Positions 2,674 through 40,971 of a DNA stretch of 42,459 nucleotides are shown here, one piece after another (the stretch's first letter is position 1; every line of letters starts with the position of its first letter). The DNA comes from an uncultured Clostridia bacterium (lineage in GTDB: Bacteria; Bacillota; Clostridia; Christensenellales; Aristaeellaceae), in NCBI GenBank assembly GCA_946411525.1, contig CAMKEI010000016.1, positions 1-42,459 on the forward strand. Reading direction: 5' to 3'. Below the pieces are notes generated by a model. It saw only the letters and a list, made by a program, of their open reading frames with translations. It was not told where the DNA came from and ran no database searches. The position numbers and the translations under genes are program-made.

Positions 2674-3843
2674 TTATTCCGCCCGGAGCGCATCCGCAAA
2701 GGATTCCGCTCCGAAACGTTCCGGCAGTCCCAGCCATTCGGCGCATGTCGCGCCGATATCCGCGAAGGTTTTCCGGGTGCCGAGGTCTGCCTCATGCTTC
2801 ATGCCGGGTGTCCAGGCCAGGATCGGAACATACTCCCGGCTGTGGTCCGTGGACTGAATGAAGCATGGATCGCAGCCATGATCCGCTGTGATGATCATCA
2901 GATCACCGGGCTTAAGCAGCGACAGCATTTCCTCAAGGCGCCTGTCGAAGGATTCCAGCGCAAATGCGAAACCTTCCGGATCGTTCCTGTGTCCGTACTG
3001 CGAATCAGTATCCACAAGGTTGGTAAAGCACAGCCCATCAAAATCCATGTTCATAAAGCGGATCAGCGCGTCCAGGCAGGCCGGATTCCCCGCCGCGTGA
3101 TCGCTCTGTGTCAGTCCGCGGTGCGCGAAAATATCCTCGATCTTGCCGACGCCGATACTTTCCAGGCCAGCTTCCTGCACCGCATCAGGCAGCGTTCTTC
3201 CGCAGGGCGGCAGGGAAAAGTCGCGGCGGTGCCCGGAGCGGATGAAGTGTCCGGGTGTTCCGAAAAATGGCCTTGCGATCACCCGGCCCACTCCCAGCTC
3301 TCCCTGCAGCATTTCCCGGGCCGTACGGCAGAATCCGTACAGCGTTTCCGGCGAAAAGATATCCTCATGGCAGGCGATCTGGAACACGCTGTCTGCACTG
3401 GTGTACACAATCGGCGTATGGTTTTTCATGTGTTCCTCGCCGAGTTCTTCCAGGATCACCGTTCCGGAAGCCGGCTTGTTCCCGATGCACCTGTGGCCGA
3501 TTGCTTTTTCATACGCTTCGATAAAGGAAGCCGGAAAACCGTCCGGGAATGTGGGAAAGGGGGTCCGGACCTGCACGCCGGCAATCTCCCAGTGCCCGGA
3601 AGTCGTATCCTTCCCTTTGCTCTTCTCCATAGCCCGGCCGTATGCGCCGCAGACCGGGCCGTCCCACTGATATCCGGTACCCGGGATCTGCCCAAGGCCC
3701 AGGGAGGCCATATTCGGCAGTTTCGGATTGCACTTTGCGATGACGTGTCCCAATGTGTTCGTGCCCACGTCTCCGTATTCAGCTGCGTCCGGCGCTTCTC
3801 CGGCGCCGACGGCGTCCAGCACGGTCAGAAAAACTCTGCTCAT
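2674..3843 (-). CDS. deoB: Phosphopentomutase
   Basis: 389 residues, the usual DeoB length. It interconverts (deoxy)ribose-1-phosphate and (deoxy)ribose-5-phosphate in nucleoside salvage in the cytosol and belongs to the alkaline phosphatase superfamily with two Mn ions. The N-terminal MSRVFLTVLDAVGAGEAPDA carries the first metal Asp. Further signatures are YTSADSVFQIACHE, NLVDTDSQYGHRNDPEGF and IITADHGCDPCFIQSTDHSR. The start at 3843 has AGGAGG seven bases upstream and overlaps the rimI stop (ATGA), implying translational coupling. Its place at the end of the galK-tsaE-tsaB-rimI run is not an obvious pathway link. Confidence 0.95.
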   Translation of the reverse strand: MSRVFLTVLDAVGAGEAPDAAEYGDVGTNTLGHVIAKCNPKLPNMASLGLGQIPGTGYQWDGPVCGAYGRAMEKSKGKDTTSGHWEIAGVQVRTPFPTFPDGFPASFIEAYEKAIGHRCIGNKPASGTVILEELGEEHMKNHTPIVYTSADSVFQIACHEDIFSPETLYGFCRTAREMLQGELGVGRVIARPFFGTPGHFIRSGHRRDFSLPPCGRTLPDAVQEAGLESIGVGKIEDIFAHRGLTQSDHAAGNPACLDALIRFMNMDFDGLCFTNLVDTDSQYGHRNDPEGFAFALESFDRRLEEMLSLLKPGDLMIITADHGCDPCFIQSTDHSREYVPILAWTPGMKHEADLGTRKTFADIGATCAEWLGLPERFGAESFADALRAE

Positions 3844-4346
3844 GTTTCCTCCTCCTTTTCGATCCATGGCTCTTCGCTGTAATCGGGATCCGCCTCCGGC
3901 AGATGTTCACACACCATCAGGAAAGCGTCCTCGTTATTGTCTTCATAATAGCGTTTCCGCCTGCCGACGGAAACAAATCCCAGGCTTCTGTACAGATTCT
4001 GCGCCCGCAGGTTGCTGACCCGCACTTCCAGCGTGGCATAGCATGCGCCGAGATTGGACAGAATCTGCAGCAGTTCCGCGGTCAGCTTTTTGCCGATCCC
4101 GCGGCCCCGCGCTTCCTCCTTCACGGCAATATTGGTGATATGGCTCTCATCCAGGATCACCCATGCGCCGGCGTAGCCGAGGATCTGTCCGTCCTCTTCC
4201 GCCACCAGATACCGGGCAACCGCGTTTCGGGTCAGCTCCTGCCGGAAACTCTCGCGGCTCCAGGGCCGGGCGAATGTCTCCTGTTCAATGGCCGCTACGG
4301 CGTCCACATCCCTCAGCCGCATGAAGCGGATCACCGGCTCATTCAT
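3840..4346 (-). CDS. rimI: Ribosomal protein alanine N-acetyltransferase (GNAT)
   Basis: 168 residues with a complete GNAT fold. The acetyl-CoA loop reads EEARGRGIGKKL after the beta strand HITNIAVK, and the family's LEVRVSNLRAQNLYRSLGF plus RKRYYEDNNEDAFLM follow near the C-terminus. RimI acetylates the N-terminal alanine of ribosomal protein S18 and often accompanies the t6A genes. Here it overlaps tsaB by 8 bases upstream and deoB by 4 bases downstream, so all are likely translated from one mRNA. Assignment as RimI rather than another GNAT rests on these motifs and the tsaB/tsaE neighbours. Confidence 0.9.
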   Translation of the reverse strand: MNEPVIRFMRLRDVDAVAAIEQETFARPWSRESFRQELTRNAVARYLVAEEDGQILGYAGAWVILDESHITNIAVKEEARGRGIGKKLTAELLQILSNLGACYATLEVRVSNLRAQNLYRSLGFVSVGRRKRYYEDNNEDAFLMVCEHLPEADPDYSEEPWIEKEEET

Positions 4347-5031
4347 GCCCCATGGCCTCCAGCAGCTTTTTGTTCTTCTGTGCGTTCGGCGGCCGTAGAT
4401 AAGTCGCCTGAAGTCCGAGGTAATCGGTTTTTTCCCCTTTGTTCAGCGCGATCCATCCCGCCGCGGAAGGCCGCAGATAGCTGCGGAAAGGGGGCGCAAA
4501 CACAGCCTTTTCCCCCAGGCTGGCACTGATTGCCCTGCGGTGAACCGGAACTCCATCCCCTACAAACAGAAAACGGTTATCCAGCGTTTCCGCCTGTTCC
4601 AGATAATCCTCGAGCTTCATCGGCGCATCACCGGTCAGCCGCTCTCCGTTCCGGAAAACCGCTCCGTAGACCTGGCCTGCCCGGGCGTCCTGAATTGGGC
4701 AGACCGCACCGTCATAGCATCCAGCCGACTCGGCCAGCGCTTCCAGCGCGTCCACCGGAATACAGGGAATTCCGGCTCCGTGAGCCAGCCCTTTGGCTGT
4801 TGCCACGCCGATACGAACGCCGGTAAAGCTTCCGGGGCCCGTCACCGCAGCTATGGCGTCCAGATCCTTCAGTTCCGTCCCTGCCGCGCTCAACGCCGCC
4901 TCGATCATAGGCATCAGGCTTGCCGAATGGGTATTTCTGTTCTGCGCGGTATATTCGCTGTATACCTTCTCTTCATCCATGACCGCCGTGCCGCATACCG
5001 GGCCGGAAGTGTCGATCACCAGTATCTTCAT
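4339..5031 (-). CDS. tsaB: tRNA t6A37 threonylcarbamoyl transferase complex subunit TsaB
   Basis: 230 residues of the ASKHA-fold TsaB family. The N-terminus MKILVIDTSGPVCGTAVMD and the signature TGPGSFTGVRIGVATAKGLA are diagnostic. TsaB is a non-catalytic partner of TsaD and TsaE in making N6-threonylcarbamoyladenosine at tRNA position 37. The start has GAGGCGG six bases before ATG. It lies 12 bases after tsaE and overlaps rimI. The catalytic subunit gene tsaD is not in this window. Confidence 0.94.
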   Translation of the reverse strand: MKILVIDTSGPVCGTAVMDEEKVYSEYTAQNRNTHSASLMPMIEAALSAAGTELKDLDAIAAVTGPGSFTGVRIGVATAKGLAHGAGIPCIPVDALEALAESAGCYDGAVCPIQDARAGQVYGAVFRNGERLTGDAPMKLEDYLEQAETLDNRFLFVGDGVPVHRRAISASLGEKAVFAPPFRSYLRPSAAGWIALNKGEKTDYLGLQATYLRPPNAQKNKKLLEAMGHE

Positions 5032-5043
5032 CTGTCTGCCGCC

Positions 5044-5484
5044 TCAATCCAGGGATATTTCACGGAATCTTCCGCGCGTTTCCTCTGTAATCCGCCGGGT
5101 GTTTTCTCCGGTGGCTTCGATACAGATCCGCAGGCAGTCCTCCGGGACGGCGTCCGGGCATCTGCCCGGCCATTCCACCAGCGCGATGCCGTCTCCGCCC
5201 AGATACTCATCCATGCCCAGCTCATACAGTTCTTCGGCGCTCTCCAGCCTGTACCAGTCAAAGTGGTACAGCGGCACAGACCCGCTCTCATAAACATTCA
5301 GAATTGTAAAGCTCGGGCTGGTGACCGTCTCCTGTACCCCGAGCCCCTTGGCCACGCCCCGGGCCAGTTCGCTTTTTCCGGCACCCAACTCACCTTCCAG
5401 CAGGATCACGTCTCCCGCCCTCAGCTGTTCAGCCAGCCGTTTCCCCAGTGCCTGTGTCTCAGAAGCGCTGTGTGTCACAATCAT
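5044..5484 (-). CDS. tsaE: tRNA t6A37 synthesis ATPase TsaE
   Basis: 146 residues with the Walker A motif GELGAGKS at 31-38, the TsaE-specific TVTSPSFTILNVYE and YHFDWYRLES, and VEWPGR before the C-terminus. TsaE hydrolyses ATP to reset the TsaB-TsaD complex. The open frame extends further upstream, but the start at 5484 makes the family-typical N-terminus (MIVTHSASETQALGKRLAEQ) and overlaps the galK stop as ATGA. Confidence 0.94.
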   Translation of the reverse strand: MIVTHSASETQALGKRLAEQLRAGDVILLEGELGAGKSELARGVAKGLGVQETVTSPSFTILNVYESGSVPLYHFDWYRLESAEELYELGMDEYLGGDGIALVEWPGRCPDAVPEDCLRICIEATGENTRRITEETRGRFREISLD

Positions 5485-31127: not shown

Positions 31128-32957
31128 TTACTGGGCCCTCTCCAGCAGTGTAAGCAGATACACGAATTCTTCCTTGTACGCGTCCCCGGTAACGCTTTCG
31201 CATCCGCGGACCAGTTCCAGCGCCTGTTCCCAGGTCGCGCTTCCCTTCCACTCGCTCTCCCGCAGAATCATCCCTGCTTCCGTCACCGCCGCAGCGAACC
31301 GCAGGTTCTCGCTGAGCTCCTCGCGGACCGCAGCCGCCTTCACAGGATACTCATACAGTTCGCTTTCGGTGCCTTCGGGTTTTTTTGCCCGGATGGAAAC
31401 CGTAAGCCAGTCCGCATCTTCCGTTTTCTCCGAAGTCTGCAGGTTCTGATAACGGCTTTCTGCTTCGCCGAATTCAAAATCCGAATCTGCCGGAACGATC
31501 TCATACAGAGCCGTCATCCGGTGCCCGCTGCCGATCTCTCCGCCGTCTTTCTCATCATCGGCAAAATCCTCGGCAGCCATCAACCGGTCTTCATAGCCGA
31601 TCAGCCGGTAACCTTTTACCATTGCCGGGTTGAAATCCACCTGGATCTTCACGTCCTTCGCGACCGTGATAAAGGTGCCGCCGGCTTCTTCCACCAGTGC
31701 CTTCCGGGCTTCATGGATCGTATCGAGATATCGGCAGTTGCCGTCGCCGTAGTCTGCCAGGGCTTCCATCTTGTTATCCTTGTAATTGCCCATCCCGACA
31801 CCCAGACAGGTCAGGCTGATCCCTGCCTTCTTCTTTTCAGTTACCAGTCTTGCCAGATCTCCTTCGCCGGTAACGCCCACATTCAGATCCCCGTCCGTGG
31901 CCAGCAGGATCCTGTTCACGCCTTCCTCGCGGTAATACTTCGCTGCGATCTCATAGGCTCTGCTGATACCCGCGGAACCGTTGGTGGCGCCGTGGGCTTC
32001 CAGTTCTGAGATTGCTTCCATGATCCGGGTCTTGTCCGCAGCGGGAATACCTTCAATAATCACCCGGTCCTGGCTGGCATAAGCCACGATGGACACGGTG
32101 TCATCCGGCTCCAGTTCGTCAAGCAGAAGCATGAATGCCCGTTTCACCAGATCCAGCCGTTCACTGCCGAACATGCTGCCGGAAGTGTCGATCAGGAATA
32201 CAAGGTTGTGCCCCGGCCGGTCGTCTTTCTTGATTTCCTCCGCCTGAAGACCGATCAGCAGCAGTTTCGTTTTTTCGTTCCAGGGACAGGGCCCGATTTC
32301 CGTTGTTACGCCGAAAGGTTCCCCGTCCTTTGGCCGGGCATAGCTGTAGTGAAAGTAGTTCAGCATTTCCTCAATCCGGACGCTGTCCGGGGCCACCCGT
32401 TCCCCGTTCAGCACCTTGCGCCGGAGCATGGCGTAGGAGGAGGTATCCGCGTCCGCCGCAAAAGTCGATAAAGGCGAGGTCAGCACGCTCAGAAAGCGGT
32501 TGCTCTCAAAAGTGGCATATTCCTCCGTGTTCCATTCAATCTGTCCGGACCATCCCCCGTTGGAAACCGGCATGCCGGTTGACAGCGGCGCGCCGTAAGC
32601 TGCTTTGGCTGCTGGTGCCTCCGCCGCCTCATATACGTCATAGGTCCGCTGGCTCATCATGTCGTCAGCTGTATCCATGGTCGTCTCCAGCACCTTCATA
32701 GTGACGCTGTCTGCCATACCAGTCTGCAGCAGGTCATGATCCCGCTGGAAAGCCTTCAGGGCTTCTTCGGTCTCTTCATCAAATATGCCTGTGGGTTCCC
32801 GGTTCAGGTAAGCCAGTTCCTTCAGCCTCGTCTGAATCCAGGCGATCTTCTCCCCGCTGTCTCCTGTCTGCCAGATTCTGTTCTCTTCTCCCATGGCCGA
32901 CGCTGTGATACTCAGCACCATCAGCATCGCCAGAATAATCGCCGTGACCTTTCTCAT
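31128..32957 (-). CDS. Secreted VWA-domain protein with peptidoglycan-binding domain (YfbK-like)
   Basis: 609 residues. Signal peptide at 1-22 (ending ASAMG), a peptidoglycan-binding type 1 domain at about 28-92 (GDSGEKIAWIQTRLKELAYL, GIFDEETEEALKAFQRDHDL), an alanine-rich linker, then the YfbK-type arrangement: a VWA N-terminal extension (FLSVLTSPLSTFAADADTSSY), the VWA domain with a complete metal site DTSGSM at 257-262 and later ATDGDLNVG, and a C-terminal DUF3520-like domain. It probably binds the wall and a protein or glycan ligand. AGGAGAGG precedes the ATG. No clear promoter was found in the 130-base gap before it, and no hairpin terminator after it. Confidence 0.9.
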   Translation of the reverse strand: MRKVTAIILAMLMVLSITASAMGEENRIWQTGDSGEKIAWIQTRLKELAYLNREPTGIFDEETEEALKAFQRDHDLLQTGMADSVTMKVLETTMDTADDMMSQRTYDVYEAAEAPAAKAAYGAPLSTGMPVSNGGWSGQIEWNTEEYATFESNRFLSVLTSPLSTFAADADTSSYAMLRRKVLNGERVAPDSVRIEEMLNYFHYSYARPKDGEPFGVTTEIGPCPWNEKTKLLLIGLQAEEIKKDDRPGHNLVFLIDTSGSMFGSERLDLVKRAFMLLLDELEPDDTVSIVAYASQDRVIIEGIPAADKTRIMEAISELEAHGATNGSAGISRAYEIAAKYYREEGVNRILLATDGDLNVGVTGEGDLARLVTEKKKAGISLTCLGVGMGNYKDNKMEALADYGDGNCRYLDTIHEARKALVEEAGGTFITVAKDVKIQVDFNPAMVKGYRLIGYEDRLMAAEDFADDEKDGGEIGSGHRMTALYEIVPADSDFEFGEAESRYQNLQTSEKTEDADWLTVSIRAKKPEGTESELYEYPVKAAAVREELSENLRFAAAVTEAGMILRESEWKGSATWEQALELVRGCESVTGDAYKEEFVYLLTLLERAQ

Positions 32958-33020
32958 GATCTTTCCTCTCCTTTCAGAACGCCGGTTTCCCCGGTCTCAT
33001 TCTGTCAGACGCTGTTCAGG

Positions 33021-33048
33021 AAAAAAAGTTCCCGGTCGTCCAGAAACT
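33021..33048 (-). terminator. Terminator of the sensor/PP2C/STAS-kinase/PHP operon
   Basis: On the minus strand AGTTTCTGG pairs with CCGGGAACT (two to three G-U pairs) around the loop ACGA, followed by a seven-T run. It lies 39 bases after the last gene of the operon and 64 bases before the VWA gene. Confidence 0.8.
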
Positions 33049-33087
33049 TTTTCGTAACAGGCTGATCATCGTGATGATCCCCGCATA

Positions 33088-33966
33088 TCATTTTGCAGCC
33101 GCGCATTTGTCCCCGGCTTCCTCCAGAAAGCGCAGCATTCCGTCGGGAATGGTCTGAGCCTGATCCAATGCCGTGTCGCCCAGTGTAACAAGCTTGTTCT
33201 TCCCGTGATAATCACTGCCGGCTGTAACAAGCAAATTGTGTTTTTCCGCGATTTTCAGCGCTTCGGCCCGCAGTTTGGGCGTGTAACCCGAATAGAAAAC
33301 CTCCAGTCCCCGCAAGCCATACCCGATCAGGCGGCGGATGCGCTGCTCCAGCTCGTCGCCGATAATCAGTTCGTCGCCGCTGCCAAAGGCGGGATGAGCA
33401 AGCACAGGAATTCCTCCGCCTCCGAGAATGCCGCTGACCGCTTCATCCGGGCGCACGTATTCATCATGAAATCTGATCTGATTGATATATCTGTTGATTG
33501 CTTCATCTTTGGATGAAGCGTATCCGTATTGTACCATCAGGTTCCCGATGTGCGGTTTTCCCGGATTGCACAGGCTCAGCAGGCGCTGGATTTCATGCTC
33601 CGGAAAAACAAATCCGAACGTGGTGCGAAGGAAATCAAGCCGGGCTATGACCTTTTCCATGCGATACCGGTGTCCGCTTGTCACAATCTGCCGGACGGAC
33701 GGACTGTCCGGATCAAATCCGTAACCGAGAATATGATACTTTCCTTCCTCATCCCGGCAGGAAAATTCAATACCGGACAGAAGCAGCGGGTCATCTGCGT
33801 GAAGCACCTTCCGGATTCTTACACAGCCTTCCGCAGTATCGTGATCCGTCAGCGCGAACAGTTCAATTCCGGCATTCCTGACCTGCTCCAGCAGCTCTTC
33901 CGGCGTGTCTGTTCCGTCCGATACCGTGGAATGCATGTGCAGATCTATTTTTCTTATATTATTCAT
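33088..33966 (-). CDS. PHP-domain phosphoesterase (TrpH/RNase AM-like)
   Basis: 292 residues. IDLHMHSTVSDGTDTPEELL, LTDHDTAEG, LLLSGIEFSC, GGIPVLAHPAFG, FYSGYTPK and VTAGSDYHGKN follow the order of the TrpH/YciV family, whose studied members release 5'-nucleotides from short oligonucleotides or nucleoside bisphosphates. It is the last gene of the sensor operon: its ATG comes one base after the STAS-kinase stop, so it is tightly coupled. Whether it makes or removes a small phosphorylated signal for that system is an open inference. Confidence 0.88.
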   Translation of the reverse strand: MNNIRKIDLHMHSTVSDGTDTPEELLEQVRNAGIELFALTDHDTAEGCVRIRKVLHADDPLLLSGIEFSCRDEEGKYHILGYGFDPDSPSVRQIVTSGHRYRMEKVIARLDFLRTTFGFVFPEHEIQRLLSLCNPGKPHIGNLMVQYGYASSKDEAINRYINQIRFHDEYVRPDEAVSGILGGGGIPVLAHPAFGSGDELIIGDELEQRIRRLIGYGLRGLEVFYSGYTPKLRAEALKIAEKHNLLVTAGSDYHGKNKLVTLGDTALDQAQTIPDGMLRFLEEAGDKCAAAK

Positions 33967-33967
33967 G

Positions 33968-35146
33968 TCAGAACACCAGCGTATCAGTCTTGTTCAGCAG
34001 CTCCGTCAGATTCGTGCGGCAGGTGTCGATCATCTTTCTTCCGTCTTCCCGGTTCAGCCCGTCCCGCCGGATTTCGCGCCGCATCAGCCTGGTCAGGCCG
34101 ATAATCTTTGCTTTGGCCTCCACTTCATCAACCCTGTCCTGATCCTCAGTGTCCAGGTACAGCTCGAGACTCCTGCGCCAGATGATCCCGCCGGTCTCGT
34201 CCGGGATCCCCAGGAATCTCTCCTGAATTCCGCGTTTGACAAGTCCGAAACCCTCATAGGCGTTGTACATGCTTGCAAGCTCAAAAATCGGATGACCGTG
34301 GCAGAGCGTGTCCATGTCGATCAGCAGGCTTTCACCGTTCTGCTGCATGATGTTTTTTACATGATAATCACCGTGTATCAGATGCATATCTTCCGGCACA
34401 GCGCTGATCAGGCCGTGCAGCCTGGTAAACTGCTCCGTCGGAAGATAATCCTTCAGGAACTCCGTCCAGTTCAGTGCGGTCGCTTTCATGTCCGGCAGGA
34501 TCTCCGAGCGGATCTCCTTGGAATGGATGATTTTAAGCAGCCGGATACTCATCTCCGCTATTTCTTCCGGTGTTTTTTCTCCTTTGACCAGGAGCTTGGC
34601 AAAACTGGTGGCGTTCAGGAGCTCAAACACTGAACCGTAGCCGCCTCCGTCTATGCGTACCACATCATATGGAATGGCGGTCGGTACACCGGCAACAAAC
34701 GCCAGCCGCGCCAGCTCCCGTTCCCGATGAATCTCCGGCAGCGAGTCCGGGTTCAGGTACACCTTGACGATGGTGTCCGGATTGATCCGGTAGACATTGC
34801 CGTTGGCTCCCGCTCCGATCACCTCACAGCCTTCCACGGAAATCACCCGGTATGCTTTCCGTACTTCCATCATATCGGTAAATCCAGTCATCTCAAGAAT
34901 GTTGTACAGATCGGGATGAACGTTGGTCAGCACCGTATCGTTCACTTCCTGCTTCAGCCTGAGAATCACCCGTAGCCCCGCGCTGGTGGAATACTCCAGC
35001 CGATCGCAGTCCAGCTCGACCGACTCACAGGCATGTTCCCTGCGCAGCGTTTGAATCTTTTCTTCAGTGTCTGCCGCGTTGAATGAGTCAATCTTTCCGA
35101 TCAGTGTGATGATCAGTTTGCCGTTTTCTTCCCTGCCCTGAATCAT
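33968..35146 (-). CDS. STAS domain fused to an APH-fold phosphotransferase
   Basis: 392 residues. Residues 1-100 are a STAS (anti-sigma antagonist) domain with GKIDSFNAAD and the switch region EYSTSAGLRVIL (51-62), holding Ser53, Thr54 and Ser55 as candidate phosphosites. From about 105 an aminoglycoside-phosphotransferase-like kinase follows: glycine loop GAGANGNVYR (111-120), Lys128 in IVKVY, catalytic loop HGDYHVKN (258-265) and metal motif IDMDT (276-280). Kinase and substrate may thus be in one chain. It lies one base after the PP2C gene, which would be the opposing phosphatase. No GHKL anti-sigma kinase or sigma factor is in the operon. The target is unknown. Confidence 0.87.
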   Translation of the reverse strand: MIQGREENGKLIITLIGKIDSFNAADTEEKIQTLRREHACESVELDCDRLEYSTSAGLRVILRLKQEVNDTVLTNVHPDLYNILEMTGFTDMMEVRKAYRVISVEGCEVIGAGANGNVYRINPDTIVKVYLNPDSLPEIHRERELARLAFVAGVPTAIPYDVVRIDGGGYGSVFELLNATSFAKLLVKGEKTPEEIAEMSIRLLKIIHSKEIRSEILPDMKATALNWTEFLKDYLPTEQFTRLHGLISAVPEDMHLIHGDYHVKNIMQQNGESLLIDMDTLCHGHPIFELASMYNAYEGFGLVKRGIQERFLGIPDETGGIIWRRSLELYLDTEDQDRVDEVEAKAKIIGLTRLMRREIRRDGLNREDGRKMIDTCRTNLTELLNKTDTLVF

Positions 35147-35147
35147 T

Positions 35148-37016
35148 TTATTTCTTCTCCTTCTGGCTCCGGTTGCCGTAATATTTCAGGCACAGCATGG
35201 TAATATCGTCAAACTGCGGTGTATTGTCCGCAAAAAGGTCCACTGCCTCGTGCATGTTGCGGATCAGTTCCTCCGGTCCGGCGTCGGCGTTCCGGTTCAG
35301 CGTATTGATCAGCCGTTCTTCTCCGAACATTTCTCCGTCTGCGCTGGTCGCCTCAGGTACGCCGTCTGTATAGACGAACACGCAGTCACCGGGATGAAGC
35401 TCAAACTCACGAACCTGATATGCTGCTTTTTTGTTTACGCCGATGAACATGCCGTGCTTATACTTGAGCAGTTCAAAATCCCCGCCCGCGTACCGGACTC
35501 CCGGATTTTCATGCCCCGCGTTGCAGGCCAAGCCTTTCCCTGTGGAAATCTCCAGCACGGCCAGCCATACCGTGACAAACATCATGGAAGAATTCCGCTC
35601 GCAGAGCTGCAGGTTCACGCGTTCCAGGGCTGTTGCCGGATCGCAGCCTGTCATCAGCTGGTTCTTGATCAGCGTTTTTGACACCATCATGAACAGCGCG
35701 GCGGGAATGCCTTTGCCGGAAACGTCCGCAATCACCAGCGCCAGATGATCGCTGTCTATCAGGAAAAAATCATAGAAATCGCCGCCGACCTCCTTTGCCG
35801 GCGTCATGGAGGCATACAGTTCAAACTCGGTCCGGTCCGGGAAAGGCGGGAAATTCATCGGTAGTGTATTGATCTGTATATCCGCTGCCAGTTTGAGCTC
35901 TTTGTCCAGGCGGTCCAGTTCCGAGATCATGGACACCACGCCCCGCATTTCATCGCCCGCTTCTTTCTCGTCCAGAACGGCGCGAAGAAAATCAAACTGA
36001 TTCTCTGAGGTTGTCTGGATTCGGCAGCGCGTTGTGATCTGAACTCTTTCCTCCGGATGTTCCTTGTTATGCTTTTCCGCCGCCTCATCCACCAGGGAGG
36101 AAAGATACTGGAGCGCGGAACGGCTGCTTTCCCTGGAGAACATCAGGAATTTTTGTTCTTCTGTCCGGATCACGTCGCCGTCCTGATGCAGTGTGTCCCG
36201 CAGGATATCGAAACAGGCCGGAAGATTCCCGTTTGTTTCCAGAATCAGTGCGCTGCGGGCTTCGTTTTTTCCTGCCAGGGAAAGATCGAACAGAAAAGCC
36301 AGGAAATCCCTGTTGTAAAATCCGGATTCCTCATCCAGAAAACGGGCTTCATCGGCCATGGTAAAATTCAGCATCACCGCGCCGATGGCGAAGCCGAGGA
36401 CGTCTGTCTGGCAAGGGAAGAAGTACTGTACGGATAGTCCCAGCGCCACAGGCACAAGTACCGGCACAGCCTGTATAAAACTTACTTTCGACGCCCTTCG
36501 GTTGTAATACCGCACTCTGATGATCGACATCAGGAAACAGGCCGCCTCAATCGCGACAAAAACATAATAGAGCGGTTTGAATTCATACTGGTTTTCTTCC
36601 GTACAGGTGAAAACAATTCCGGTGAACAGATTGACGATCAGGAGCACTGTGAACACGCCGAAGGGCAGATTGTAAAGCACGTTCATCAGGGACCACCGTT
36701 TTTTATTCCCGTAAGTCTTTTTTTCAGAGTAAGCAGCCCACAGCAGAACGACCAGGAACGTGACCCAGTCCCATAGGGTCATGGCGGCTATTGCCAGGGT
36801 ATGGCACCAGGGTGCCGGCTGTTTGATCATGGCATGACAGATAAAGCTCAGCACGCAGATTACCGTCAGGGACAGCCTGAACAGGAAGAAAATCCGCAGA
36901 GCATCGCTTTTCCGTCTGTGAAGACGATCTGCGAGGAGTGCCAGAAGAATCATCACCAGAAGAGCAGCGGCATCTGCGTAGCAGGATGCGGCGGCTGCCT
37001 TGTCAATAGCGATCAT
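35148..37016 (-). CDS. Membrane PP2C-type phosphatase: 7TM, degenerate GGDEF-like and SpoIIE/RsbU domain
   Basis: 622 residues. About seven membrane spans lie between 12 and 222. Residues about 227-345 begin DEESGFYNRDFLAFL, like the DxLTGLxNRR entry of GGDEF domains, but no GGDEF active-site motif is seen, so this module is probably inactive. A short helix (ELDRLDKELKLAADIQINTLP) leads to a PP2C/SpoIIE domain at 395-620 with EVGGDFYDFF (409-418), ADVSGKGIPAALFM (430-443), CNAGHENP, YTDGVPEA and QFDDITMLCLKY, so all metal Asp residues appear intact. It likely dephosphorylates the neighbouring STAS domain. Its ATG overlaps the sensor stop by 4 bases. Confidence 0.9.
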   Translation of the reverse strand: MIAIDKAAAASCYADAAALLVMILLALLADRLHRRKSDALRIFFLFRLSLTVICVLSFICHAMIKQPAPWCHTLAIAAMTLWDWVTFLVVLLWAAYSEKKTYGNKKRWSLMNVLYNLPFGVFTVLLIVNLFTGIVFTCTEENQYEFKPLYYVFVAIEAACFLMSIIRVRYYNRRASKVSFIQAVPVLVPVALGLSVQYFFPCQTDVLGFAIGAVMLNFTMADEARFLDEESGFYNRDFLAFLFDLSLAGKNEARSALILETNGNLPACFDILRDTLHQDGDVIRTEEQKFLMFSRESSRSALQYLSSLVDEAAEKHNKEHPEERVQITTRCRIQTTSENQFDFLRAVLDEKEAGDEMRGVVSMISELDRLDKELKLAADIQINTLPMNFPPFPDRTEFELYASMTPAKEVGGDFYDFFLIDSDHLALVIADVSGKGIPAALFMMVSKTLIKNQLMTGCDPATALERVNLQLCERNSSMMFVTVWLAVLEISTGKGLACNAGHENPGVRYAGGDFELLKYKHGMFIGVNKKAAYQVREFELHPGDCVFVYTDGVPEATSADGEMFGEERLINTLNRNADAGPEELIRNMHEAVDLFADNTPQFDDITMLCLKYYGNRSQKEKK

Positions 37017-40000
37017 AATGCCTCCTCACTCAGCGGTCGGTCTGTCAGATAGAGATGAATGCACACGAGGATCATGGCATAGAAGAATGAAGTGGAGGAA
37101 ATGTCCGGCGCGAAGATCTCCCCGATCAACCGAGCGGTGATCAGGACAGCGCTGATAGCCACCAGGCGTTTCCTGACTTTGAACATTTTGATCAGTGAAA
37201 GCAGAAGATAAACCAGCATAAGAATAAATCCCGCGTGAATGTACCTTCCCGAACGGAAGATGTTCCCGTCAGTGATCGAAAAAAACCAGCCTGTTCTAAG
37301 ATTGATCATCGTCGCAGCGAAATACAGGATGCAGGGAATCCCGTACAGTATCTTGTTTCTACGTACACGGGCTTTGTCCGGGTTGGTGCAGTAATCAAGA
37401 TATACCAGCAGCAGGCAAGGGAAAAAGACAAGCATGATATAGTACACTGTATTCCCTGCGATCATGAGTCCCCGGATAAGCGGACCCGTAATATACTCCA
37501 GAACATATGACAGCAGCGCCCCGGCAGCCAGAGCAATGTTTGATACAATCAGTTCGAAAAACAGCCTGTCTTCCAGCCGGTTATGCTTCCGGTGCGGGGA
37601 AGTGTAAACCAGGACGCCTCCCATCAGAATCAGCGACGCCAGGATCATGATAGAGGTACCTATCGTTCCGGCAGACATTTCCCTTCCCTTGACAATTCGG
37701 AAGGATAAGGTTTGCTCGGTATGATCCATGGGATCCTGAACCGTCATGATGAACTGATAGGCGCCGATAATCAGATTCGTATAATCCACCGGACCCAGCT
37801 TGCTGCGGCTGACAGTAGTATCTGTCAGATCGAAACCGTCCAGCCGGTAGGAAATCCGAGGATCGGCCAGGGAGTAATTGAACACATGGGGATAAAAAGT
37901 CAGCTTGTGCGCATTCCCCGGCAGGATGAACTCGCCTGTCTCGTCCGGATAATACCGTTTGCTGTCGGCGTCGATATACGGAAGTGCGACTTTGAATTCG
38001 CTGTAGTTTTTGAAAGGCTTCTCAATGTTGACTTTGACCGTTCCGTTGACGCCCGCTATATACAGGTCGCCTTCATCGGTCAACTCGCTGAAGGAATTGG
38101 ACGTTGCAACATAGGGCAGGCCGGCCGAATGCCCGTAGTATGTCGAATCAATATGGCCGTTTGCGATCATCTCATCGGCGCTGACCACATACACGCCGTT
38201 GCTGGAAAGCACCCAGATTTCGCCCTTGCTGTTTTCATACAGGTCATAGTTGTTGGAATATGGAAAGTGTTCGATTGTCGTAACATGATAGTCAGGCGTC
38301 ATATACGCCAGGGAATTGCCGGTTGCGATCCAGTAGATATCCCGGTAGCGGCTGCGTTTGATGCGCAGAATGATCTCCGATTTCAGTCCATCCTCCAGAC
38401 CGATGTGCTTCAGCCCGTCCTGCCCGATGACATAGATTCCGCCGCCGTCGGATCCCAGAAGCATCTCATGGTTGAATCCTTCCGTCACGGTCAGGATTGA
38501 AGTGACAATCAGTCCGTCTTTCGCGCCGTAGCGTGCTGTAATCCGGTCGTCCCGGATCACGCTTGCGCCGTCAGGCTGAGCCGCCAGGATCGTTCCGTCC
38601 GCGCACTCGCAGACCGTGCGGGCCTGTGTGGAAATCAGCCCGTCAGCTTTTGTAAATGCCGTCAGTTCTCCCCTGTCATATCGAAGCAGTCCAAGCCCGG
38701 TCCATGTTGAGATCCAGAGCCGTCCGCTGCTGTCCCGGATAATCGAACGGATACGCACGCCGTCCAGATATTCTAGCAGGTCTGTGGTATCCAGACTGAC
38801 GCCGGAAACCGTCTCGGCCCTGGTCAGGGGGATGCTGTCCAGCTCTTCCCCGTTCTCGGTAACGACCAGCCCCGATTCAGTCCCGATGAAAAGCTGTCTT
38901 CCGTACATGCACGTGGAGTTGACAACCTCTTTGTCCAGTCCGTTGCGCTCATACATATCAAGGAATCGGTTGGGGACAATCTTCATGACGCACTGCCGCG
39001 TAGACGTAAACCACAGATTGCCTTCATGATCTGTCATTACATCGCCGACCAGTTTGTTCATCGGAATGTTTCTCAGCGGATGGAAGCCCTCACTGTCCAC
39101 CTTCCCTATACCGTTCCCTGCACAGATCCATATGTCCCCTTTGACATACTCAAAGCGGTTCACACTGGACAGCGGGGAAATGTCTCTGACCTGCAGGGAA
39201 GCGAAATTCTTTTCCAGGCTGCCGTTATAAATCCGGGACTCTTCCGTCCCCAGGAAAAGATTGCCCGGTTTCCGTGTGTCCGGCAGGATGGCAATGACGC
39301 CCTTGATCCGGCACTCCTCATGGCTCAGGAAGGTGATCACTTTGCCATCTTTCATGGTAAACAGATCTCCGCTCTGGGAAACGCCGTAAATCAGGCCGTC
39401 CGCTCCGAGACGGATATCCAGGATGGTTTCCGCTGAAACCCGCTCGTCCTTTACCACGGAAAAATGCAGTTCCCTGTCTATGGTAAAGATACCTGCCACG
39501 CTTGCGATATAGATGACGCCTTCAGGATCTTCTGCAATGGCCCGGATGCTGGCGGATACTGGCTGGTCACCCGGATCGAGCCTTTGGATGATTCCTTCTG
39601 ACATAAGATACATGCCGGAATCGTTGGTGCCGATCCACAGTCTGTCCCTGCTGTCAACATACAGGCACCGCGTATTCAGAATCCCGTTTTCTATTTCAAT
39701 TCGCTCAAAGTTGTTTCCGTCATATCGGATCAGTCCGGCATAGCTGCCGATCCAGATAAAGCCGTCGCTGGTCTGCGCGATTGTGTTCGCCTCGGAAGTC
39801 GGCAGCCCGTTCTCGTTATCATACAGAACGGCAGAAAAGCCTTCTGTTTTGCGGATCGGATCAACCGCAAGTTTCGTATTCCGGTTCCCTGAAACGTTCA
39901 GGGACAGGGACGCTTCTTCAGCTGATCCGGTGCTGATCTGTCCGGCGGGAAAAAGAACCGCAAGAAGCATGCAGCACAGCAGGCAGCATACGGTACGCCT

Positions 40001-40024
40001 GTTTCGGATCAAAGACATCGCCAT
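37013..40024 (-). CDS. Surface sensor: two beta-propellers, Y_Y_Y domain and 7TM, no kinase
   Basis: 1003 residues. An N-terminal signal/anchor (about 8-37) precedes many two-component-regulator propeller repeats (TSDGFIWIGSYAGLIRYDG, DSRDRLWIGTNDSGMYLM, DSSGRLWISTWTGLGLLRYD), covering roughly 50-680, then a Y_Y_Y domain (about 690-775; YSLADPRISYRLDGFD). This is the extracellular part of Bacteroides-type hybrid two-component sensors, but after one span it leads into about seven more spans and stops (YLTDRPLSEEAL) with no histidine kinase or regulator. The next gene, overlapping by ATGA, encodes the phosphatase with a similar 7TM module. The start was chosen at 40024 for GGAGGAG upstream; the frame runs 23 codons further. 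The ligand is unknown, possibly a glycan. Confidence 0.9.
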   Translation of the reverse strand: MAMSLIRNRRTVCCLLCCMLLAVLFPAGQISTGSAEEASLSLNVSGNRNTKLAVDPIRKTEGFSAVLYDNENGLPTSEANTIAQTSDGFIWIGSYAGLIRYDGNNFERIEIENGILNTRCLYVDSRDRLWIGTNDSGMYLMSEGIIQRLDPGDQPVSASIRAIAEDPEGVIYIASVAGIFTIDRELHFSVVKDERVSAETILDIRLGADGLIYGVSQSGDLFTMKDGKVITFLSHEECRIKGVIAILPDTRKPGNLFLGTEESRIYNGSLEKNFASLQVRDISPLSSVNRFEYVKGDIWICAGNGIGKVDSEGFHPLRNIPMNKLVGDVMTDHEGNLWFTSTRQCVMKIVPNRFLDMYERNGLDKEVVNSTCMYGRQLFIGTESGLVVTENGEELDSIPLTRAETVSGVSLDTTDLLEYLDGVRIRSIIRDSSGRLWISTWTGLGLLRYDRGELTAFTKADGLISTQARTVCECADGTILAAQPDGASVIRDDRITARYGAKDGLIVTSILTVTEGFNHEMLLGSDGGGIYVIGQDGLKHIGLEDGLKSEIILRIKRSRYRDIYWIATGNSLAYMTPDYHVTTIEHFPYSNNYDLYENSKGEIWVLSSNGVYVVSADEMIANGHIDSTYYGHSAGLPYVATSNSFSELTDEGDLYIAGVNGTVKVNIEKPFKNYSEFKVALPYIDADSKRYYPDETGEFILPGNAHKLTFYPHVFNYSLADPRISYRLDGFDLTDTTVSRSKLGPVDYTNLIIGAYQFIMTVQDPMDHTEQTLSFRIVKGREMSAGTIGTSIMILASLILMGGVLVYTSPHRKHNRLEDRLFFELIVSNIALAAGALLSYVLEYITGPLIRGLMIAGNTVYYIMLVFFPCLLLVYLDYCTNPDKARVRRNKILYGIPCILYFAATMINLRTGWFFSITDGNIFRSGRYIHAGFILMLVYLLLSLIKMFKVRKRLVAISAVLITARLIGEIFAPDISSTSFFYAMILVCIHLYLTDRPLSEEAL

Positions 40025-40098
40025 GAAGTCAACTCCTCCGGTTTTCTGTTGCAGGTGAAGTGTGCGGCCGTTCCGAAAGCCTTTTTGTTTCATTCAGG

Positions 40099-40147
40099 AT
40101 TATAAAAAACCATATTAAAATATATTACTTTTTGTCTTCGACTTCAA
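40099..40147 (-). promoter_or_regulatory. Promoter region of the sensor operon
   Basis: TTGAAG (40147-40142), 17 bases, TATATT (40124-40119). A further TATAAT (40104-40099) lacks a good -35. The 194-base gap between hisK and the sensor gene is otherwise without obvious features; no convincing terminator of the his genes was seen in it. Confidence 0.5.
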
Positions 40148-40218
40148 GTATTTTTCCGGAAGGCAATGCCGCCCCTTATTGTTCGGTTTTCAGCAGATGA
40201 TCTTGTTTCTTCAGGCAG

Positions 40219-40971
40219 TCAGCGCCTGTCAGCACAGCACACTTCGTCCTGATAATCCGTAAACCGGTATGCGATGGTTTCCTTCTGGTGGCTGTCGCTT
40301 GAAAGAATCAGCTTCCCCCCCCGTGCACGGATATAGTCCCGTATTTCTTTGCTCGGATACGGCTCGGTCCGGTATCCCCGGGACATCGCGCCGGTATTGA
40401 TTTCAAAAGGTTTTCCGGTTTTCAGAAGAATATTGGCGGCGCTTTGCCATGCTTTCACGTAACGGGGATGGTGTACGTCAAAAGCCGGTTCCTGCTCGAT
40501 GAATTTGGTTATCAGGTCAAAATGGCCGATAATGTCGCACTTTGTCACTTCTGCGACTTTTGCTTCCGTTGCATAGAATTCCTCAACAAACGCGTACCAG
40601 TCGCCGCCGAAATACTTTTCCACGCCTTCCCGCTGCTTCTCAGCGGTCCAGTCAACCGAAACGTGATGGCCGTCCGGCATTGTCAGCAGGTGCACCGATC
40701 CGATCACGTAATCGTACGGTCCGAAATCATCCGAAATGAAATCCCTTTCCAGGCCGCACAGCACTTTAATCTGCCCTGCGTACTTCTCCTTTAGCCGGGC
40801 GATCTCTGCCCGGTATTCCGCGCTGGCTTCCGCTGTCATCCCGCAGGGATCCAGATGGCTGTGATCTGAAATCCCGACCGCGTCCAGACCCCGGCGGATC
40901 GCTTCCTGTACCATTTCCTCCGGCGTGTTCTTTCCGTCGGAAAAAACGGTGTGCATGTGCAGATCTATCAT
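40219..40971 (-). CDS. hisK: PHP-type histidinol-phosphatase
   Basis: 250 residues. PHP motifs: [66 protein letters not shown] and LILSSDSHQ. These fit the HisK/HisJ branch that removes phosphate from histidinol phosphate, the penultimate step of histidine synthesis. The call is supported by hisF and hisIE directly upstream; its ATG overlaps the hisIE stop by one base. The symbol hisK versus hisJ is a matter of usage. Confidence 0.88.
   Translation of the reverse strand: MIDLHMHTVFSDGKNTPEEMVQEAIRRGLDAVGISDHSHLDPCGMTAEASAEYRAEIARLKEKYAGQIKVLCGLERDFISDDFGPYDYVIGSVHLLTMPDGHHVSVDWTAEKQREGVEKYFGGDWYAFVEEFYATEAKVAEVTKCDIIGHFDLITKFIEQEPAFDVHHPRYVKAWQSAANILLKTGKPFEINTGAMSRGYRTEPYPSKEIRDYIRARGGKLILSSDSHQKETIAYRFTDYQDEVCCADRR

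Follow-up and report, generated by a model that had tools for sequence, protein, structure and literature searches.

The window analyzed here, a stretch of 42,459 nucleotides from an uncultured bacterium with relatives among the Clostridia of gut and rumen, contains a four-gene operon inserted between hisK and the conserved terminator of the his locus. The operon encodes a propeller sensor, a PP2C phosphatase with a 7TM domain (7TM-PP2C), a STAS domain fused to an APH-fold kinase (STAS-APH), and a PHP phosphoesterase. We consider it probable that these genes form a laterally acquired partner-switching module whose output is an enzyme rather than a sigma factor, made up of a split sensor phosphatase, a STAS switch, a GHKL reset, and a PHP enzyme acting on the product or on a linked metabolite. 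In it, the sensor-linked phosphatase would turn a small-molecule kinase on and off. Control of sigma factors is the best-known role of partner switches, and here the switched STAS domain would be part of an APH-fold kinase. What is new is that STAS-APH is accompanied by one of two unrelated hydrolases, PHP or a SpoT/Mesh1-type HD_4 protein, which occur together only once in the 42 rows of our tally. Since known relatives of both act on phosphorylated nucleotides, the companion enzymes hint at an undescribed nucleotide signal, and with STAS-APH they offer a straightforward and inexpensive way to test for a new regulated metabolite or messenger. The surprise of an earlier, sequence-only reading of this DNA was that no kinase accompanies the phosphatase. 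That surprise is removed, and two apparently interchangeable nucleotide-type hydrolases take its place.

Four-gene operon at the his locus

The ORF list of the window places the four genes on the minus strand in the order sensor, PP2C, STAS-APH, PHP (Table 1). The sequence-only reading had given the same genes and domain contents, with a 4-nt overlap between sensor and PP2C and 1-nt gaps between PP2C and STAS-APH and between STAS-APH and PHP, and ORF positions and Pfam bear it out (E values: Reg_prop, 5.7e-22; SpoIIE, 1.5e-49; STAS, 3.4e-12; APH, 1.2e-16; PHP, 1.6e-10). Hydropathy is consistent with about seven TM segments in the C terminus of the sensor and likewise in the N terminus of the phosphatase. 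The sensor frame is open from 40093, and the preferred start is the ATG at 40024, which lies behind GGAGG and yields a protein of 1003 aa; sensors of relatives are 1001 to 1028 aa long. The promoter once thought to bound the operon is no better than chance. The site at 40147 matches at 9 of 12 positions, and because the scanned stretch holds 6 such sites versus 7.0 in shuffles, it carries little weight. No RNA family was found in the window at gathering thresholds. An anti-phage defense system was considered and rejected, since PADLOC models gave no match to the four operon proteins.

Table 1. Positions of the operon, its insertion borders, and its flanking genes in the window
Feature	Position	Strand	Remarks
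VWA/YfbK-like gene	31128..32957	-	Downstream flank
Intrinsic terminator	33010..33055 (about)	-	Ancestral his terminator, now 3' of PHP; fold z -3.35
Inserted cassette, approximate extent	33056..40240	-	Borders read by eye
PHP phosphoesterase	33088..33966	-	Best NCBIfam score is 3',5'-nucleoside bisphosphate phosphatase, under cut-off
STAS-APH	33968..35146	-	STAS with conserved Ser (STSAGL) fused to APH-fold kinase (HGDYHVKN, LIDMD)
7TM-PP2C	35148..37016	-	7TM, divergent middle region, SpoIIE/PP2C phosphatase; GGD, DVSGKG, TDG, and DD motifs conserved
Sensor	37013..40024	-	N-terminal anchor, Reg_prop propeller, C-terminal 7TM; without output domain
Promoter-like site TTGAAG-17-TATATT	40119..40147	-	Weak candidate
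hisK (HisJ-family PHP)	40219..40971	-	Upstream flank, outside the system; last codons differ at the junction

Nine of 13 same-genus loci (L158 to L165 and L168) have the VWA gene immediately after hisK. Two other ORFs separate the two genes in L166, hisK is followed by other genes in L167 and L170, and hisK is missing from the ORF table of L169. The his terminator hairpin lies between hisK and the VWA gene in six of the seven junctions compared by eye, the exception being L160, where it is not in the part compared. The direct hisK-VWA arrangement and the hairpin between the two genes therefore place the entry point of the cassette between hisK and the his terminator. The sequence-only reading had also bounded the operon with a terminator; this hairpin is real, but it is the ancestral his terminator and not the operon's own. 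Among 10 other same-genus genomes in a survey of 200 genomes of the family, none contains a STAS-APH of the window's clade (clade A, defined below) and none contains a PHP match at E 1e-20. Two of the 10 carry a STAS-APH match of 38 to 41% that was placed in the outgroup, and each of the 10 has one distant (30 to 33%) relative of the sensor. Foreign base composition was considered and rejected, since the GC content of the insert (0.525 to 0.541) and its GC3 (0.580 to 0.684, lowest in PHP) overlap or lie near those of its neighbors. Mobile-element borders were likewise rejected, because no direct or inverted repeats of 8 to 14 nt were found between 40151-40300 and 32991-33130. A leader-like stretch with a CCGG hairpin (32955-33015; fold z -2.5, with 3 of 200 shuffles equally good) lies between the his terminator and the VWA gene and is shared, by eye, with same-genus loci.

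Outside the window, the four-gene order recurs in L011, L100, and L099, the last with a broken PP2C frame. It is thus rare, and its recurrence in three loci indicates that the set is more than chance. The co-occurrence that the sequence-only reading had proposed to search for is real to this extent, and the two halves are often apart. In the stretches fetched, only three of the nine other sensor loci have sensor-PP2C linked to STAS-APH(-PHP), which argues against an obligate four-gene unit. The halves lie on different contigs (C8 and C127) in G157, and the stretches from G100, G082, G104, and G055 contain sensor-PP2C but no STAS-APH.

A probable split sensor phosphatase

A full-length sensor was found in 8 others of the 200 family genomes, and 7TM-PP2C is the next gene in seven of these eight (with a broken PP2C frame in G188). 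In G179, the sensor and 7TM-PP2C each lie at contig ends. The 4-nt overlap between the two genes is kept in L011, L099, L122, L123, and L124. The 7TM domains of the sensor and the phosphatase are homologous to each other (hhalign probability of 98.4%, E 6e-15, 140 columns), and in L126, L128, and L129 the propeller is fused straight to SpoIIE as a single chain. The adjacency, the homologous 7TM domains, and the single-chain fusions argue that sensor and PP2C act as a unit. The simplest reading is that they constitute one split receptor phosphatase held together by the homologous 7TM domains, and the relatives would then show a propeller receptor phosphatase in both split and single-chain forms. 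The sequence-only reading had the sensor gating the phosphatase through the membrane; these data uphold the pairing of the two.

The SpoIIE-type PP2C domain of the window scores 169 bits in Pfam with its metal-binding motifs intact, and the motif columns GGD, DVSGKG, TDG, and DD are invariant in 10 sequences. A degenerate GGDEF domain in the middle region of PP2C was considered and set aside as weak, with Pfam E values of 0.019 (L121) and 0.027 (L122) and no match in the window or L011. The extracellular propeller is shared with Reg_prop hybrid two-component sensors. The window sensor differs from these in having no histidine kinase, and propellers of relatives are fused to SpoIIE or HD_5 instead. 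In a Pfam search at E 0.001, only Reg_prop, and neither a kinase nor a receiver domain, was found on the propeller protein. The fusions of the same propeller type to an HD_5 (HD-GYP-like) output are at L125:5817-9941 and L127:2570-5656.

The STAS-APH kinase and its companion hydrolases

The STAS residue S55, which we take to correspond to Ser58 of SpoIIAA, is invariant in 20 sequences. The STAS serine motif was found by pattern search in 36 of 38 clade-A tree rows and the APH motif HGDxxxxN in all 38. The earlier idea that this protein is the switch is plausible, and STAS-APH may be both switch and output. The TIGR02172 kinase model scores 73.8 bits against STAS-APH, under its cut-off of 228.2, and the best solved-kinase match of the APH profile is hygromycin kinase (70 positions, E 5e-6), a match that does not settle the substrate. 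Matches are rare across the phylum, where 4 of 397 other genomes have one at E 1e-40.

A quick tree of 61 STAS-APH proteins (SH-aLRT support only, 24 of 58 inner branches open) separates clade A, with 38 rows including the window, from an outgroup of 23. Neighborhoods were tallied in 65 rows, that is, all 20 loci of the first set and 46 of 62 family matches, less one duplicate. The 42 clade-A rows are the 38 tree rows, with the window among them, and L024, L112, L116, and L135, whose APH frame contains no STAS and which were assigned to clade A without phylogeny. A neighbor is a gene on the same strand within 6 kb, or 3 kb for the PHP and HD_4 tally, and some contigs end near the gene. Domain assignments outside Pfam used profiles for which a few of these same loci served as the source. 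Of the 42 clade-A rows, 26 have PP2C nearby, 22 have GHKL of the non-MATE type, and 27 have GHKL of any type; for the 23 outgroup rows the corresponding counts are 3, 4, and 4. For tree rows without the window, the counts are 23/37 versus 3/23 for PP2C and 25/37 versus 4/23 for GHKL, with Fisher p values of about 2e-4 each that serve as a guide only, since the rows are related.

PHP is near 18 of the 42 clade-A rows (window included) versus none of the 23 outgroup rows. HD_4, the SpoT/Rel/Mesh1 hydrolase domain, was the commonest family among 119 further same-strand neighbor ORFs of clade A (10 of 119), and in a profile search it lies near 16 of 42 clade-A rows versus 0 of 23. In 14 of these 16 it touches, overlaps, is fused to, or lies at most 25 nt from the STAS-APH frame, the exceptions being L024 and L108. 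The two hydrolases are together near a single clade-A row (L135), and neither is near 9 of the 42. Their avoidance gives a Fisher p value of 2.6e-4 over the 42 rows, with only four state changes on the tree, on which an independent-pairs test has no power. Fusions of HD_4 also occur, with STAS in L022 and with APH in L135, L210, and L211; of these, L210 and L211 lie outside the 42 rows.

The best-scoring model for the window PHP is NF041577 (3',5'-nucleoside bisphosphate phosphatase), at 111.4 bits under a cut-off of 400, and the protein aligns over most of its length with the solved metal-dependent phosphoesterase 3e0f (E 5e-34). HD_4 matches RelA/SpoT models far under their cut-offs and also matches solved Mesh1-like and alarmone hydrolases. 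Both companions are thus kin in sequence to known enzymes, the PHP nucleoside-bisphosphate phosphatases and the small alarmone hydrolases and Mesh1, at scores under the equivalog cut-offs. PHP matches occur in 116 of the 200 family genomes, most at 28 to 43% identity. Among the 14 other genomes with PHP at 52% identity or more, the gene is beside STAS-APH or APH in eight and beside an APH fragment in one (G087); in the other five (G055, G082, G104, G009, and G098) the fetched stretch shows neither STAS-APH nor APH. Of the 37 HD_4 matches in the 200 genomes, 14 are fused to APH or lie next to or near it; among the remaining 23, 18 were inspected, and none of these is with APH.

Because relatives of PHP and HD_4 have phosphorylated nucleotides as known substrates, the STAS-APH kinase may act on a phosphorylated nucleotide. 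A bolder version, in which STAS-APH, controlled by the partner switch, makes a second messenger (a nucleotide phosphorylated at the 2' or 3' position) that PHP or HD_4 destroys, is in our judgment rather unlikely. If true, it would be nucleotide signaling built on a phosphotransferase fold and not on a cyclase or an RSH synthetase. Of the proposal in the sequence-only reading that PHP would handle a downstream phosphorylated product, what is borne out is the association of a PHP subgroup with STAS-APH in many loci. In searches of open-access literature we found no description of STAS-APH, of STAS-APH-GHKL with a PHP or HD_4 partner, or of Reg_prop-PP2C, and none of a Mesh1/alarmone hydrolase or PHP phosphatase tied to a STAS-controlled APH kinase.

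Several HD_4 proteins differ in architecture. HD_4-APH single chains without STAS are at L210:2003-3499, L211:3046-4470, and L135:5804-7252; a PP2C gene begins 18 nt after HD_4-APH in L211, and a PHP gene lies downstream in L135. HD_4 proteins of 519 to 529 aa, whose other half falls outside the profiles built, are at L209:2933-4516, L205:2069-3628, L206:2492-4051, and L207:419-2008.

GHKL partners and the proposed switch

The window operon itself has no GHKL gene, and the sequence-only reading had taken this kinase to be absent and the operon to be self-contained. The absence proves to be local. In L011, the closest four-gene relative with complete frames, the sensor is immediately preceded by genes for a 136-aa GHKL protein and a 102-aa STAS protein, and the order in L119 is GHKL-STAS-sensor-PP2C. 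Upstream of the sensor there is also a STAS gene in L084, a 79-aa STAS piece in L099, and a MATE-GHKL gene in L100, while no GHKL or STAS is shown there in L120, L122, L123, or L124. STAS-APH carries a C-terminal GHKL domain in 9 of the 42 clade-A rows (HATPase_c_2 confirmed by Pfam in all 7 tested). Absence of GHKL from the system was rejected on the strength of these neighbors and fusions. The window genome (85% complete) has 2 SpoIIE, 3 STAS, and 10 HATPase_c_2 matches, 8 of the 10 over the cut-off. Seven of the 10 were identified as one PP2C-GHKL protein, five MATE-GHKL proteins, and one ordinary histidine kinase; the other three are weaker. The first of these, a 5TM-PP2C-GHKL protein on contig C15 with intact motifs, argues against a self-contained operon, as do the GHKL partners in relatives.

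Because the lack of GHKL is only local and the sensor belongs with the phosphatase, the best reading is a partner switch that has an enzyme as its output. We infer that an outside signal would pass from the propeller through the 7TM pair and turn on the PP2C domain, which would dephosphorylate the conserved STAS serine of STAS-APH. Rephosphorylation of this serine by a GHKL kinase would reset the switch. In relatives this kinase would be the GHKL protein of an adjacent gene or the GHKL domain of a STAS-APH fusion; in the window genome it would have to come in trans, with the C15 protein as the best candidate. The state of the STAS domain would control the activity of the APH-fold kinase, and PHP would strip phosphate from the kinase product or from a linked metabolite.

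A scheme without GHKL, in which the APH domain phosphorylates its own STAS domain and PP2C reverses this, would suit an operon that lacks GHKL, encodes STAS and APH in one chain, and keeps its APH motifs, and some members are weakly similar to protein-kinase-like models (CotS, SrkA, and Bud32). However, 22 of 42 clade-A rows, among them L011 with the same four genes, have a GHKL of the non-MATE type next to STAS-APH or fused with it, and an intact GHKL is present in the window's own genome; we give the scheme only a slim chance. Another reading makes PHP a metabolic bystander engaged in pAp or RNA turnover and has the kinase act on an envelope or other metabolite. The wide distribution of PHP relatives, the five close PHP genes without APH, and the envelope genes near STAS-APH (DUF218, M15 peptidase, YkuD, VanY, and MATE) speak for it, whereas the restriction of nearby PHP to clade A and its rare company with HD_4 do not; on balance we think it unlikely.

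The remaining alternative is an ordinary sigma-factor partner switch, with the STAS part as an anti-anti-sigma factor and with APH and PHP as accessories. PP2C, STAS, and GHKL are indeed the RsbU/RsbV/RsbW set, and a free STAS gene precedes the sensor in L011 and L119. Yet no sigma family appears in the 25 commonest of 126 families from the 119 neighbor ORFs, and HGDxxxxN is conserved in every clade-A tree row; we consider this alternative quite improbable. The RsbU-RsbV-RsbW and SpoIIE-SpoIIAA-SpoIIAB systems (reviewed in PMC8256260) comprise a SpoIIE-type PP2C, a STAS protein with a phosphorylatable serine, and a GHKL counter-kinase, all of which they share with the window system if the GHKL of its relatives is counted. 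The window differs in having no local GHKL, no sigma factor seen nearby, and a STAS domain that carries a kinase domain. The switch that we favor would work like SiaABCD of Pseudomonas aeruginosa (PMC7647112, PMC8457831), a partner switch in which the diguanylate cyclase SiaD is controlled by a PP2C phosphatase together with a kinase and a protein resembling anti-sigma antagonists. In contrast to SiaABCD, the window system joins STAS and an APH-fold kinase in one chain, has a phosphatase separate from its propeller-7TM sensor, and comes with hydrolase genes. The SiaA model NF038263 gives 51 bits against a cut-off of 700, and the score of the SpoIIE model is also under its cut-off.

MATE-GHKL fusions are near 11 of 42 clade-A rows versus 0 of 23 outgroup rows, and they are possibly transporters gated by STAS binding. 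They are less likely as the absent kinase, since the nucleotide motifs of the five own-genome fusions look degenerate by eye. These five, each a MATE transporter with a GHKL-like domain at its C terminus, are at L031:7370-9127, L032:1409-3178, L033:6625-8394, L034:869-2641, and L037:6381-8339. The same genome has free STAS genes at L043:8864-9835 (C15) and L044:5309-6162 (C30); beside them are genes for proteins of 178 to 200 aa that look GHKL-like by eye and matched no Pfam family. In L016, a gene for a GH3-family enzyme (3670-5352) lies within a cluster of STAS-APH, MATE-GHKL, and PP2C genes.
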